NCBI RefSeq assembly: GCF_002953195.1
Contig: NZ_CP026377.1
Location: 1,674,001-1,738,000, forward strand
Direction of reading: 5' to 3'
DNA from: Mixta gaviniae
Lineage (GTDB): Bacteria; Pseudomonadota; Gammaproteobacteria; Enterobacterales; Enterobacteriaceae
Length of the DNA stretch: 64,000 bases
Positions 54,007 to 59,058 of this stretch are shown in pieces (the first letter of the stretch is position 1; every line of letters begins with the position of its first letter). Below the pieces are notes generated by a model. The model ran no database searches and was not told the DNA's origin. It was given only the letters and a program-made list of their open reading frames with translations. A program made the translations under genes and the position numbers.

Positions 54007-54726
54007 ATGACGTTCGATGATTACTTTGCCTGGCGCAGGGAGGTCGAGGCTCAGTTTTTTTTACTGAATAACACTGAAGAGTTAACAAACGCGTTGCAAC
54101 AGCAGATTGAAGCGCTGGGGCTGGATCACTTTGCCTTATTTATTCGTCATCCTGTCCCTTTTACCCGGCCGAAAACCTTTCTTTTCACCACATACCCATC
54201 GAGCTGGATAAAGCGATACGATAATGAAAACTATTATGCCGTCGATCCTATTTTGCGTGAGTGTCTGCCGGGAAAATTTATAGCCTGGGGGGATGCCGTT
54301 TCGGAGAAGAATGAAATATTCTGGCGGGAGGCAAAAGCGTATGGATTGGCGTCAGGCTTTTCCTGTTCGCTGATGGCCTGCAACCGCGCGACAGGTATAT
54401 TATCGGTGGCATCAAAAAAAGCGTTAAATATGCTGCACATGATGCCGCAAAAACAGTTGAGACTGCAGTATCTTTTGGATCTGTCGCTACAAACGCTGCT
54501 GCGTTTAGATGATGTGTCGATGCGGATTTTAGATATAACCTTAAGTCCACGCGAACTGGAAATTTTAAAATGGACGGCGGAAGGAAAAACGGCTGCGGAG
54601 ATTTCATTGATACTTTCTATCTCGCCTTACACGGTTAACTTCCATCAAAAGAATTTGCAGAAGCGTTTTAACGCGCCGAATAAAACTCAGGTTGCCAGCT
54701 ATGCGGCTGCGATTGGCTTGCTGTGA
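54007..54726 (+). CDS. sdiA: LuxR-family quorum-sensing receptor, SdiA orthologue
   Basis: Transcription factor that binds N-acyl-homoserine lactones. It has 239 residues. Autoinducer-binding domain (about 20-165): the TraR/SdiA ligand residues are present as Trp in TYPSSWIKRY, Tyr, the DP pair in YYAVDPIL, Trp in FIAWGDA and Gly in GLASGFS. C-terminal LuxR helix-turn-helix (about 175-236): LSPRELEILKWTAEGKTAAEISLILSISPYTVNFHQKNLQ, almost identical to E. coli SdiA; RHPVPFTRPK also matches SdiA exactly. GAGG precedes the ATG. It sits near yecF and uvrY, as sdiA does in E. coli, but here it is followed by luxI. The gene is more AT-rich than its neighbours. Confidence 0.95.
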   Translation: MTFDDYFAWRREVEAQFFLLNNTEELTNALQQQIEALGLDHFALFIRHPVPFTRPKTFLFTTYPSSWIKRYDNENYYAVDPILRECLPGKFIAWGDAVSEKNEIFWREAKAYGLASGFSCSLMACNRATGILSVASKKALNMLHMMPQKQLRLQYLLDLSLQTLLRLDDVSMRILDITLSPRELEILKWTAEGKTAAEISLILSISPYTVNFHQKNLQKRFNAPNKTQVASYAAAIGLL

Positions 54727-54736
54727 CGAGCATTGC

Positions 54737-54756
54737 AACTACTAAATTTAGTAGTT
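54737..54756. promoter_or_regulatory. Candidate lux box
   Basis: Perfect 20-bp palindrome AACTACTAAATTTAGTAGTT, 11 bases after the luxR stop and 97 bases before luxI. Length, symmetry and position match the sites LuxR-type regulators use to activate luxI. Confidence 0.8.
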
Positions 54757-54809
54757 TCATAAGGTTAACCGGTTGTCTACCCTTCGGCCGGGGTATCAGC
54801 TGGGTAAAC

Positions 54810-54825
54810 GCCGTATGCATACGGC
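54810..54825. repeat. 16-bp palindrome in the luxI leader
   Basis: GCCGTATGCATACGGC, perfectly self-complementary, 28 bases before the luxI start. It could be a second operator or an mRNA hairpin near the ribosome-binding site. Confidence 0.6.
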
Positions 54826-54852
54826 TCAAACGAGGGAGTGCGACAGGGGAAC

Positions 54853-55473
54853 ATGATGAAGATTATCCAAACCCAGCTAAAGGATATGCCATCCTCGTTA
54901 TTGGCGGAATTGGGCAGTTATCGCTACAGCGTATTTGCGCGCGGCGAAGGGTGGTCGATACCCTCGCGGCTGAGTACGCCAGGGCAGGAGTACGATCGCT
55001 TTGACCGTTCCGACGTCACCTGGCTTATTGCCTGGCATGCGCGTCTCGGCATTTGCGGCTGCGCGCGGCTGATGCAGTGGCAGGAGCCGGGTAATATCGA
55101 AGGGATTAGCGTACCGTTCGATCGTAAAGAAGCGGTGTGGGAGATGTCGCGTTTTTCCGCACGTCTTGACGTCGATAATGAGCTGCCGCTGACCATTCTC
55201 TGGCATGCTGTGCAGCTGGCGGAGTTATCAGGCATCGATTATCTGGTCAGCGCCGCGACGCCGATGCTGGAGCAGATGTTTGAGCAGCATAAGGTGGGGT
55301 TCGAGCCCCTGACGCCGGGGCTGATTCAGTCTGAGGACAATCTGTTCGCGGTGAAAATCCCGGTGAAGCAGCAGGAGCTGGCGGAAAAATATCGCGGCGC
55401 GCGTCGCTTCAGCCCGGAAGAAGTCCTGCCTTCGCTGGGGGTTTCCATCAACTGGCAGTCGCACGGGCGTTAA
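54853..55473 (+). CDS. Acyl-homoserine-lactone synthase (LuxI family)
   Basis: Makes N-acyl-homoserine lactone from S-adenosylmethionine and an acyl-ACP. It has 206 residues from ATG 54853 (MMKIIQTQLKDMPSSLLAELG). Core residues of the family are present: Arg and Phe in YRYSVFARGEGW, Trp, Asp-Asp in QEYDRFDRSD, Arg in GICGCARLM, and Glu-Arg in WEMSRFSARLD. It looks closer to the RhlI type than to EsaI. The segment corresponding to the usual Thr-Pro-Tyr-Met-Leu stretch is replaced by QWQEPGNIEGISVPF, so chain-length specificity cannot be predicted. AGGGGAAC precedes the ATG; the frame also opens at GTG 54838. Partner of the upstream luxR. Confidence 0.94.
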   Translation: MMKIIQTQLKDMPSSLLAELGSYRYSVFARGEGWSIPSRLSTPGQEYDRFDRSDVTWLIAWHARLGICGCARLMQWQEPGNIEGISVPFDRKEAVWEMSRFSARLDVDNELPLTILWHAVQLAELSGIDYLVSAATPMLEQMFEQHKVGFEPLTPGLIQSEDNLFAVKIPVKQQELAEKYRGARRFSPEEVLPSLGVSINWQSHGR

Positions 55474-55805
55474 CGCCAGCGCGTCCAGAGCGTAATCAGC
55501 AACCATGCGGCCAGCACCCAGCAAAGCACGGCGCTGGCCAGCGCAAGCGGCAGCCGCATTATGCCGATAAAAAACCACAGCGAAAGCAGATAGAGAAAGT
55601 AGGGCAGGATAGCCCACATGCCGAACACCAGCGTGGCGCGCAGCGCCGCCGTGCCCTTATCGGTTGCGACCAGATAGTGCGCGATCAGCGCGAAGGTAGG
55701 AAACAGCGGCAGCAGACCCGCAATGTAGTAGTTCTTACTCTTCGCCAGCAGGCCGATCGCCACCACCATGAGCGCGCCAATCAGCGCCTTTAGCAACAAA
55801 CCCAT
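55470..55805 (-). CDS. GlpM family membrane protein
   Basis: Small inner-membrane protein of the GlpM family, 111 residues from ATG 55805 (MGLLLKALIGALMVVAIGLLAKS). Four helices are visible, including YYIAGLLPLFPTFALIAHYLV and LALASAVLCWVLAAWLLITLW. The family was named from Pseudomonas, where it was linked to alginate production; biochemical function unknown. The frame runs upstream to 55937, but the added residues are Arg-rich and not family-like. Tail-to-tail with luxI, overlapping by 4 bases. Confidence 0.85.
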   Translation of the reverse strand: MGLLLKALIGALMVVAIGLLAKSKNYYIAGLLPLFPTFALIAHYLVATDKGTAALRATLVFGMWAILPYFLYLLSLWFFIGIMRLPLALASAVLCWVLAAWLLITLWTRWR

Positions 55806-55872
55806 TATCTTATCCGCGGCAAAAGGCTTAACATGCGTGAAGCAGGCCGCAAAATCAATGGGTTCGCCCGAC

Positions 55873-56097
55873 TTAACGCCGATAAGCCGCCTTGATCTGG
55901 CCGATGGTCTGGCTGAAGGTTTCCGCCTGCTGTGCATCGTCCAGCTGCGCGATAACGCGCTCCATGTTGATAATCACTTTGCCTGCGTCCGCCTGGCCCA
56001 TGCCTTTTAGCATCATAGTGACCATCGCTTTCAGGCAGGCGACTTCATTCGCCAGGGTTTTTGCGTCTTCTGAAGTGGTAAAGTCGTTCTGTCCCAT
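55873..56097 (-). CDS. yecF: YecF (DUF2594) family protein
   Basis: Small cytoplasmic protein of unknown function, 74 residues, the same length as E. coli YecF. Conserved core LANEVACLKAMVTMMLKGMGQADAGKVIINMERVIAQL and C-terminal GQIKAAYRR. GGAGAAAC precedes the ATG. In E. coli yecF stands between sdiA and uvrY, so this gene anchors the locus identity. Confidence 0.94.
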   Translation of the reverse strand: MGQNDFTTSEDAKTLANEVACLKAMVTMMLKGMGQADAGKVIINMERVIAQLDDAQQAETFSQTIGQIKAAYRR

Positions 56098-56573: not shown

Positions 56574-57233
56574 TTGATTAGCATTCTTCTTGTGGATGAC
56601 CACGAACTGGTACGCGCAGGGATTCGTCGCATACTGGAAGATATCAAAGGTATTCGGGTAGCCGGCGAGGCATGCTGCGGTGAGGATGCGGTGAAATGGT
56701 GTCGCACCAATCAGGTTGACGTCATCCTGATGGACATGAATATGCCGGGCATCGGCGGCCTGGAGGCGACGCGCAAAATCGTGCGCTTCAATCCTGACGC
56801 CAAAATCATCATGTTAACCATCCATACGGAAAATCCGCTGCCGGCGAAGGTCATGCAGGCGGGGGCGGCAGGCTACCTGAGCAAAGGCGCCGCGCCACAA
56901 GAGGTGATCAGCGCCATTCGCTCGGTGCATGCGGGACAGCGTTATATCGCCTCGGATATCGCGCAGCAGATGGCGTTAAGCCAGATTGAGCCTGAAAAGA
57001 GCGAATCTCCCTTCAGCTGTTTGTCGGAACGGGAATTGCAGATTATGCTGATGATAACCAAAGGGCAGAAAGTGACAGACATTTCTGAACAGCTTAATCT
57101 GAGCCCCAAAACCGTTAACAGCTACCGTTACCGTATGTTTAGTAAACTGAATATCAGTGGCGACGTAGAGTTAACGCATCTGGCCATCCGGCATGGCCTG
57201 TTTAATGCGGAGTCGTTGATCAGTAGTGAATGA
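56574..57233 (+). CDS. uvrY: Response regulator UvrY (GacA)
   Basis: FixJ/NarL-type regulator of the BarA-UvrY two-component system, which turns on CsrB/CsrC sRNAs. It has 219 residues. Receiver domain (1-120): acidic pocket [12 protein letters not shown], phospho-acceptor Asp54 in [12 protein letters not shown], and MLTIHTENP and SKGAAP (switch and Lys). HTH (about 150-205): [44 protein letters not shown]. The start is TTG at 56574, as in E. coli. Its stop overlaps uvrC by 8 bases. Confidence 0.97.
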
Positions 57234-59058
57234 AGTCTTTGACGCAAAATCTTTTCTGAAAACTGTCACCAGTCAGCCCGGCGTATATCGCATGTATGAC
57301 AGTGGCGGCACGGTTATCTACGTTGGCAAAGCCAAGGATCTGAAGAAACGCCTCAGCAGCTACTTCCGCAGCAACCTTGCCAGCCGTAAAACCGAAGCGC
57401 TGGTGGCCAATATTCAGCATATTGATGTCACCGTTACGCACACCGAAACCGAAGCGCTGTTGCTTGAGCATAACTACATTAAGCTCTACCAGCCTCGCTA
57501 TAACGTGCTGCTGCGCGACGATAAATCCTATCCCTATATCTTTCTGAGCGGCGATCCGCATCCGCGCCTGGCGATCCATCGCGGCGCTAAACATGCCAAA
57601 GGTGAATATTTCGGCCCGTTCCCCAACGGCTACGCGGTGCGTGAAACGCTGGCGCTGCTACAGAAAATCTTTCCCGTACGGCAGTGTGAAAACAGCGTCT
57701 ATCGCAACCGTTCGCGCCCTTGTCTGCAATATCAGATTGGCCGCTGCCTGGGGCCGTGCGTCGCCGGGCTGGTGAGCGAAGAGGAGTATGCGCAGCAGAC
57801 GGAATATGTGCGCCTTTTCCTGTCGGGGAAAGACGATCAGGTGCTGAATATGCTGGTCAGCCGCATGGAGCAGGCCAGCCAGTCGCTGCGTTTTGAAGAG
57901 GCCGCGCGTCTGCGCGATCAGATTCAGGCGGTTCGCCGCGTCACTGAAAAGCAGTTCGTCTCCAATCAGGGCGATGACCTGGATGTGATCGGCGTCTCCT
58001 ACGATGCGGGAATGGCCTGCCTGCACGTGCTTTTCATTCGTCAGGGCAAGGTGCTGGGCAGCCGCAGCTATTTTCCTAAAATTCCGGGCGGCACCGAGCT
58101 GGCGGAAGTGGTGCAAACTTTTGTCGGGCAGTTTTATCTGCAGGGCAGCGAGGCGCGTACGTTGCCGGGTGAGATCCTGCTCGATTTCGAATTGCCGGAG
58201 CGGGAGCTGCTGGCGGAGTCGCTGAGCGAACTGGCCGGACGCAAAATTCATATTCAAAGCCGGCCGCGCGGCGATCGCGCCCGCTATCTGAAGCTGGCGC
58301 GCACCAACGCGGCGACGGCGCTGGTGACCAAATTAACCCAGCAGTCCACCATCCATCAGCGATTGACGGCGCTGGCTGAGGTGCTGGATCTGCCGCAGAT
58401 CAAGCGCATGGAGTGTTTTGACATTAGTCATACCATGGGCGAGCAGACGGTCGCCTCCTGCGTGGTGTTTGACAGCAACGGCCCGGCGCGCGCGGAATAT
58501 CGCCGCTATAATATTACCGGCATTACGCCCGGCGATGATTATGCCGCAATGAACCAGGTGCTGCGCCGCCGTTACGGCAAGGCGCTGGAGCCGGAAAAAG
58601 TGCCGGACGTGATCCTGATCGACGGCGGCAAAGGGCAGCTGGCGCAGGCGAAGCAGGTTTTCGCTGAGCTGGAGGTCAGCTGGGATAAAGATCACCCGCT
58701 GCTGCTGGGCGTAGCGAAAGGCAGCGATCGTAAAGCGGGCCTGGAAACGCTGTTTCTCCAGCCGGAAGGCGAGGGCTTTTCTTTGCCACCCGATTCGCCA
58801 GCGCTGCACGTGATCCAGCATATTCGTGACGACTCTCACAATCATGCGATTACCGGGCATCGCAATAAACGCGCCAGGGTGAAAAATACCAGCGCGCTGG
58901 AAAGCATTGAGGGCATCGGCCCGAAACGACGCCAGCAGCTGTTAAAATATATGGGCGGCCTGCAGCCGCTGATGAACGCCTCGGTGGAGGAGATAGCCAA
59001 AGTACCCGGCATTTCCCACGCCCTGGCGGAGAAAATCTTTTACTCGTTAAAACACTAG
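57226..59058 (+). CDS. uvrC: Excinuclease ABC subunit UvrC
   Basis: Nuclease of nucleotide excision repair that cuts on both sides of a lesion after UvrAB loading. It has 610 residues, the E. coli length. N-terminal GIY-YIG domain ([29 protein letters not shown]) for the 3' cut, Cys-rich insert ([15 protein letters not shown]), UVR domain ([18 protein letters not shown]), RNase H-like domain for the 5' cut ([31 protein letters not shown]) and C-terminal double helix-hairpin-helix. GTG start at 57226 inside the uvrY end, so the two are coupled. Confidence 0.98.

Follow-up and report, generated by a model that had tools for sequence, protein, structure and literature searches.

A gene for an acyl-homoserine lactone (AHL) synthase homologue, luxI, directly follows sdiA, which encodes a LuxR-family receptor, in the genome of Mixta gaviniae (contig NZ_CP026377.1, positions 1,674,001 to 1,738,000; this whole stretch of 64,000 nucleotides is called the window here, and positions are given within it). 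Our reading, to which we assign a probability of about 80%, is that the two genes make up a LuxR/LuxI quorum-sensing circuit that is intact and under selection, with the Pantoea pair PhzR/PhzI and the sdiA-linked ExpR/ExpI of Erwinia as its orthologues. The arrangement is not new: it has been known since Sabag-Daigle & Ahmer 2012 (PMC3474713), who described it in Erwinia and Pantoea and argued likewise, and Mixta adds a genus. The original prediction, made from the letters of the window, of an SdiA orthologue followed by luxI in the sdiA-uvrY-uvrC neighbourhood is borne out by open reading frames (ORFs), domain scores, synteny and tree, and the pair is intact as it had proposed: both genes are whole, evolve under purifying selection and enclose a conserved palindrome, and the synthase carries the residues of its family. 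The idea it mentioned, that Erwinia and Pantoea retained a synthase, is the one published in 2012 (PMC3474713). In the circuit that we propose, LuxI would make a homoserine-lactone-type signal from S-adenosylmethionine and an acyl donor, SdiA would bind that signal, and the two together would bind the palindrome, which overlaps the predicted -35 region, altering luxI transcription in a local autoregulatory loop. We infer the enzyme activity, the binding of SdiA to the box and activation over repression from the sequence.

Receptor and synthase

By tree and synteny, the window receptor is an SdiA orthologue. It matches the domains Autoind_bind (92.5 bits) and GerE (67.1 bits), and among solved structures it comes closest to an engineered RhlR variant, E. 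coli SdiA and RhlR. Identity to E. coli SdiA is 105 of 236 residues overall (44%) and 46 of 68 from E. coli residue 173 on; the helix-turn-helix, which had been called near-identical, is merely similar. The motif RHPVPFTRPK, pointed out at the same time, is indeed identical in the two proteins, as is TVNFHQKN. Among the residues that we take to bind AHL in SdiA (E. coli numbering), Y63, W67, Y71, D80, W95 and S134 are kept and S43 is replaced by A. In a LuxR tree of 55 rows, where E. coli SdiA from the PDB counts among 19 solo SdiAs, the 28 paired SdiAs form one clade (support 100/100), paired and solo SdiAs together form one clade (96/96), and RhlR stands outside as the next branch (100/96). 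The phylogeny suggested as a check of the prediction hence places the protein inside the SdiA clade, and a placement outside it was not seen. The solo SdiAs are not one clade in the free tree; a single solo clade is not rejected (approximately unbiased test, p-AU 0.364; p-AU 0.097 with three fewer solos). Two of the marks by which Sabag-Daigle & Ahmer 2012 recognise SdiA, beside AHL binding, are found in the window protein, namely adjacency to uvrY/sirA-uvrC and clustering with SdiA apart from RhlR and other LuxR proteins.

The synthase gene is intact as well. Its longest frame opens at GTG 54838, a less likely start; ATG 54856 (or ATG 54853, which would give 206 amino acids) is favoured, because AGGGG lies 6 bases before ATG 54856 and because most of 20 aligned relatives begin with MKIIQ or something near it. 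The R, F, W, D, D, R, E and R positions shared across the family, which we take to be catalytic as the original prediction did, are all present and are near-invariant among 74 LuxIs. An AlphaFold model (predicted local distance difference test, pLDDT, 77; predicted template-modelling score, pTM, 0.78) has AHL synthases as its best matches and suggests a GNAT-like AHL-synthase fold. TofI (PDB 3p2f) is the single solved relative found from the sequence (59 bits) and comes first in Foldseek (PDB 3p2f/3p2h), with 27-30% identity in structure alignments; it is the closest solved AHL synthase by sequence. The fold matches tie between TofI and the coenzyme A (CoA)-dependent RpaI and BjaI, and we therefore discarded the fold as a guide to acyl specificity. 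A C-terminal stretch is conserved in the sdiA-linked LuxI clade and missing from most distant LuxIs aligned. Against five same-genus relatives, the ratio of nonsynonymous to synonymous substitution rates (dN/dS) is 0.016-0.036 for luxI and 0.083-0.092 for sdiA. Purifying selection acts on both genes, and on this ground we reject pseudogene status for the pair.

The first luxI ATG lies 126 bases behind the sdiA stop. In a scan of 68 named loci drawn by luxI, 64 keep an intact sdiA (a match of >200 bits over >210 residues) upstream at about 120-150 bp, so the adjacency is not due to chance. Chance or mis-annotation of either gene is likewise rejected on the domain matches and the conserved loci.

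The luxI operator and the loss of sdiA

A perfect palindrome, AACTACTAAATTTAGTAGTT, starts ten bases after the sdiA stop. In relatives this box varies within AACTRCYANNNNTRGYAGTT, and part of the loci carry matched changes in both arms (CTACC/GGTAG, CTGCC/GGCAG); positions 7/14 are complementary in 43 of 68 sites and positions 5/16 in 64 of 68. Its state follows that of the receptor gene. Among the 64 named loci with intact sdiA, the box is exact in 58, has 1-2 mismatches in 5 and is missing in one; it has 1 mismatch at each of two loci with broken sdiA (L146, G791), 3 at the one relic locus (L164, E. psidii) and 5-6 at the four loci where sdiA is absent (L161, L170, G086, G064). None of 13,205 random 200-bp pieces from these loci comes within <3 mismatches. 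A box kept when sdiA is broken, decaying when it is a relic and gone when it is absent is the series of states that use of the box by SdiA would predict, on small numbers. The lux box in the synthase promoter thus tracks the receptor through evolution, with Pantoea sp. 1.19 as the one exception. An exact box was present in 13 of 16 paired genomes scanned, solely at the sdiA-luxI locus.

Downstream of the box, 60 of 67 loci have TACCCT beginning 41 bases from the first base of the box. Its centre lies 34 bp from that of the box, a spacing that we take to be that of class II LuxR promoters. We read TACCCT (54778-54783) as the probable luxI -10, and this geometry makes activation of luxI by SdiA likelier than repression, which is possible too. 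The core element reads TATTCT in two printed loci (L138 and L161), and L161 keeps it although sdiA and the box are lost. An inverted repeat, TACCC...GGGTA (54778-54795), surrounds the predicted luxI start site; it is partly conserved and stronger in some Erwinia and Winslowiella.

A wider SdiA regulon acting through the box was considered and rejected: across 40 genomes, sites with <=1 mismatch are no commoner than those of a reversed-pattern control. One such site with one mismatch (L221:3055-3074, G000:C1:1771254), common to three genomes of the genus (G000, G130, G230) and at chance level by that control, lies 84 bp before a presumably FlgM-like gene. Exact boxes also occur twice in solo genomes, once between ORFs of unclear standing (G071) and once inside a long frame (G270).

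The distribution of the two genes shows which of them is lost. LuxI is matched in 35 of 392 genomes of the broad family, 20 of them at 58-100% identity. The 68 named loci, which cannot be used to count luxI losses, are titled Pantoea, Mixta, Erwinia, Winslowiella or Izhakiella, bar four (L110 and L111, Enterobacter; L169, Enterobacteriaceae bacterium; L158, Enterobacterales bacterium). Apart from the 64 with intact sdiA, one has a stop-broken gene (L146, an insect symbiont by title), one a relic (L164) and two have none (L161, E. endophytica; L170, Erwinia sp. OLFS4); G086 and G064 also retain luxI with sdiA absent. Among 37 genomes of the genus Erwinia, 36 have luxI without internal stops and 33 a full-length sdiA; three carry luxI without intact sdiA (G293; G775, where sdiA is a relic; G791, where it is in pieces with stops), one has neither gene (G788) and none has sdiA without luxI. 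On a UvrC tree with G791 left out, the luxI-only label takes 4 changes, and starred branches force 3 of these. In the Erwiniaceae it is thus the receptor gene that disappears, the opposite of the enteric line. A second LuxI with an adjoining other LuxR is kept in G086, G064 and G293, and that LuxR could use the signal. Our search, which was not exhaustive, found no earlier report of luxI kept after sdiA loss; LuxIs without a partner (solo or orphan) have been reported from other bacteria, judging by the title of PMC7862692 and by how often the term occurs in PMC4288048.

Four of these loci are unusual in other ways. In Mixta theicola (L105:5604-5618), luxI stops about five codons early and is otherwise open. 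The sdiA frame of Pantoea stewartii (L139) has just 222 amino acids, and its match to the window SdiA ends at residue 221. SdiA and UvrC of Mixta mediterraneensis (L128) group with Pantoea, not Mixta, perhaps through a misnamed genus or transfer. The loci titled Enterobacter ludwigii (L110) and E. cancerogenus (L111) carry Pantoea-like pairs with 82% LuxI identity and are likely mislabelled.

Locus layout and known systems

The genome is a single contig of 4.53 Mb. Among named relatives it stands closest to Mixta theicola and M. tenebrionis, with which it falls into supported five-row clades (SdiA 100/100, UvrC 100/97, LuxI 97/97). Behind sdiA and luxI on the forward strand follow glpM and a YecF-like ORF on the reverse strand, and then uvrY and uvrC (Table 1). 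The order yecF-uvrY-uvrC given for the neighbours in the original prediction stands, with glpM as a further gene between luxI and the YecF-like ORF; the names are presumed, in that we take the 74-residue ORF to be YecF, the response regulator to be of the UvrY type and the last gene to be uvrC.

Table 1. Features of the sdiA-luxI locus and its neighbours in window positions (aa, amino acids)
Feature	Position	Strand	Basis
sdiA (phzR/expR-type), LuxR-family receptor-regulator, 239 aa	54007..54726	+	ORF, domain matches, tree
lux box of 20 bp, perfectly palindromic, AACTACTAAATTTAGTAGTT; predicted operator through which SdiA controls luxI	54737..54756	.	sequence, conservation
core-promoter element of luxI, conserved, GTTGTCTACCCT	54772..54783	+	conservation; -10 role of TACCCT inferred
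AGGGG, probable luxI ribosome-binding site	54845..54849	+	sequence reading
luxI (phzI/expI-type), AHL synthase homologue, 205 aa	54856..55473	+	ORF, PF00765, predicted fold
glpM homologue, between luxI and YecF-like ORF; neighbour outside circuit	55470..55937	-	PF06942
YecF-like small ORF, 74 aa, synteny marker	55873..56097	-	name presumed
uvrY/sirA-type response regulator, synteny marker	56574..57233	+	domain matches; name presumed
uvrC	57226..59058	+	name presumed

PhzR/PhzI of Pantoea and the sdiA-linked ExpR/ExpI of Erwinia share with the window pair the locus beside uvrY/sirA, the gene order and a receptor of the SdiA clade, and LuxI counterparts from loci with Pantoea or Erwinia titles are 57-84% identical to the window LuxI. 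Their published account (PMC3474713) differs in that it speaks of neither an operator nor receptor losses and is on Erwinia and Pantoea, not Mixta; the operator, its co-loss with sdiA and the receptor-first decay are absent from that account and from the passages seen of a review (PMC12086679). Among the papers listed in a search on Mixta, quorum sensing and homoserine lactones, none is on the sdiA-luxI locus, judging by titles and the beginnings of abstracts. SdiA of E. coli and Salmonella, a LuxR solo, has the orthologous receptor and neighbourhood but lacks the synthase, and no box stands behind the solo sdiA genes examined. For RhlR/RhlI of Pseudomonas aeruginosa the likeness is on the receptor side, RhlR being the nearest non-SdiA receptor in the tree. 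The EsaR/EsaI and EanR/EanI type is also LuxR/LuxI; unlike the window pair, it has convergent gene order and a canonical PF00765 match (256 bits), and its LuxI is just 22% identical to that of the window. Beyond the window, the genome holds a second, canonical and convergent LuxI/LuxR pair (L225:3545-4913, G000:C1:3736544-3737912; PF00765, 256 bits), which we take to be EsaI/EsaR-like, and a same-genus genome has a third LuxI-family gene (G230:C10:137206-137730; PF00765, 127 bits).

Signal, origin and meaning

Several observations weigh against an intact SdiA-LuxI circuit. The tree program warned of long branches meeting among the outgroup rows of the LuxR tree, and the window SdiA scores 273.8 bits on the NCBIfam SdiA equivalog NF007561, below the cut-off of 350; that cut-off is passed in 103 of 392 genomes, in none of the 20 carrying a LuxI of the sdiA-linked clade, and is missed by all 16 synthase-linked SdiAs listed. 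LuxI passes PF00765 (Autoind_synth) marginally, at 27.7 bits against a cut-off of 24. With this family model, the LuxI of the sdiA locus reaches E 0.001 or better in just 16 of the 20 carrier genomes and exceeds the cut-off in 13, and Pfam-based surveys under-count the sdiA-linked synthase. No consensus promoter for luxI turned up in a sigma-70 scan, and Pantoea sp. 1.19 (L166) keeps sdiA and luxI with no recognisable box (best 6 mismatches). LuxI is also intact after sdiA loss in several lineages, which implies that the synthase has some use without SdiA. Negative bioassays, given below, belong here too. The pair could be read as a decaying remnant without function, since sdiA is broken or lost in some relatives, but the low dN/dS of both genes, the near-invariant family residues and the conserved box make this highly improbable. 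Nor do we expect that the box is bound by another LuxR, such as an EsaR-like protein encoded elsewhere in the genome, with SdiA not regulating luxI. A second pair, presumably EsaI/EsaR-like, does exist in the same genome, but the box is gone with sdiA in G086, G064 and G293 despite the LuxR beside their second luxI, and is present in G240, G367 and G353, where PF00765 finds no second synthase.

A working circuit could use an unusual signal. Sabag-Daigle & Ahmer, citing Venturi 2004 (E. amylovora) and Morohoshi 2007 (P. ananatis), state that ExpI and PhzI make the 3-oxo-C6 homoserine lactone (3-oxo-C6-HSL, oxoC6; PMC3474713). Passages of a later paper credit the Morohoshi P. ananatis signals to EanI, the other synthase, and describe an eanI mutant of P. 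ananatis PA13 with no signal by thin-layer chromatography and a Chromobacterium indicator (PMC7883899). The published 3-oxo-C6-HSL claim for the sdiA-linked synthase cites the E. amylovora work and work on P. ananatis signals later credited to EanI. For E. pyrifoliae, passages of PMC2827408 report one SdiA-like pair in the genome (45% to SdiA) and no expRI, negative results in the CV026 and NTL/pZLR4 AHL biosensors, and a proposed unknown signal. These negatives bear on the sdiA-linked clade solely if its synthase gene occurs in those strains; P. ananatis LMG 2665 carries it (L116). Insertion mutants of phzI have phenotypes in symplasmata of P. eucalypti (passages of PMC4989142) and in amoeba grazing on P. 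ananatis BRT175, whose phzI adjoins phzR/sdiA by locus number (passages of PMC4863597), and these weigh against a silent synthase. What these passages say about AHL output tends to count against a short-chain AHL of the standard kind. The pair may work with a signal other than a classical short-chain AHL, the divergent LuxI using, say, an aryl-, branched- or long-chain donor missed by standard biosensors. We hold this to be a possibility, short of an expectation. Besides the two bioassay reports, it is favoured by the very long branch of the LuxI clade (5.8 changes per column), by the C-terminal stretch uncommon in distant LuxIs and by the tie of TofI with CoA-dependent RpaI and BjaI. Against it, the solved protein nearest in sequence, TofI, is catalogued as an AHL synthase, negative bioassays may reflect low expression, fold ties say little on substrate, and both the clade of the E. 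pyrifoliae synthase and the possession of the gene by PA13 are assumed.

The origin of the pair can be read in two directions. The published scenario of loss in enterics is a reasonable candidate. A synthase gained beside sdiA in an Erwiniaceae ancestor, which would make the circuit derived, is possible, though less likely than not. In its favour, the UvrC tree has a fully supported split (100/100) between solos and pairs plus luxI-only loci, and the pair occurs on one side of it alone. None of 49 solo sdiA loci has a box with <=3 mismatches, the core element there has 3 mismatches in one locus and 4-5 in the rest, like random pieces, and tblastn found no luxI match in the 19 of these loci that it covered. 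The sister group of the sdiA-linked LuxI clade could not be placed, because its branch of 5.8 changes per column is too long and long branches meet; in a wider protein search, the 120 proteins listed of 2710 matches all belong to that clade, with no intermediate relatives among them. On the other side, RhlR, the receptor closest to SdiA, has a synthase partner of its own (PMC3474713), solo SdiAs bind AHLs though their hosts produce none, and a clean, old luxI deletion would leave no relic.

For an intact SdiA-LuxI circuit, the paired loci amount to a natural experiment, in which a sharply conserved operator accompanies SdiA, and the product of the synthase would name the ligand with which the SdiA lineage evolved. 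More speculatively still, the sdiA-linked LuxI clade may make a signal beyond standard AHL biosensors that is the original SdiA ligand. If so, SdiA of E. coli and Salmonella, as a receptor tuned to something else, would detect AHLs as a relaxed side effect, and the conserved palindrome would represent the site that SdiA bound ancestrally.
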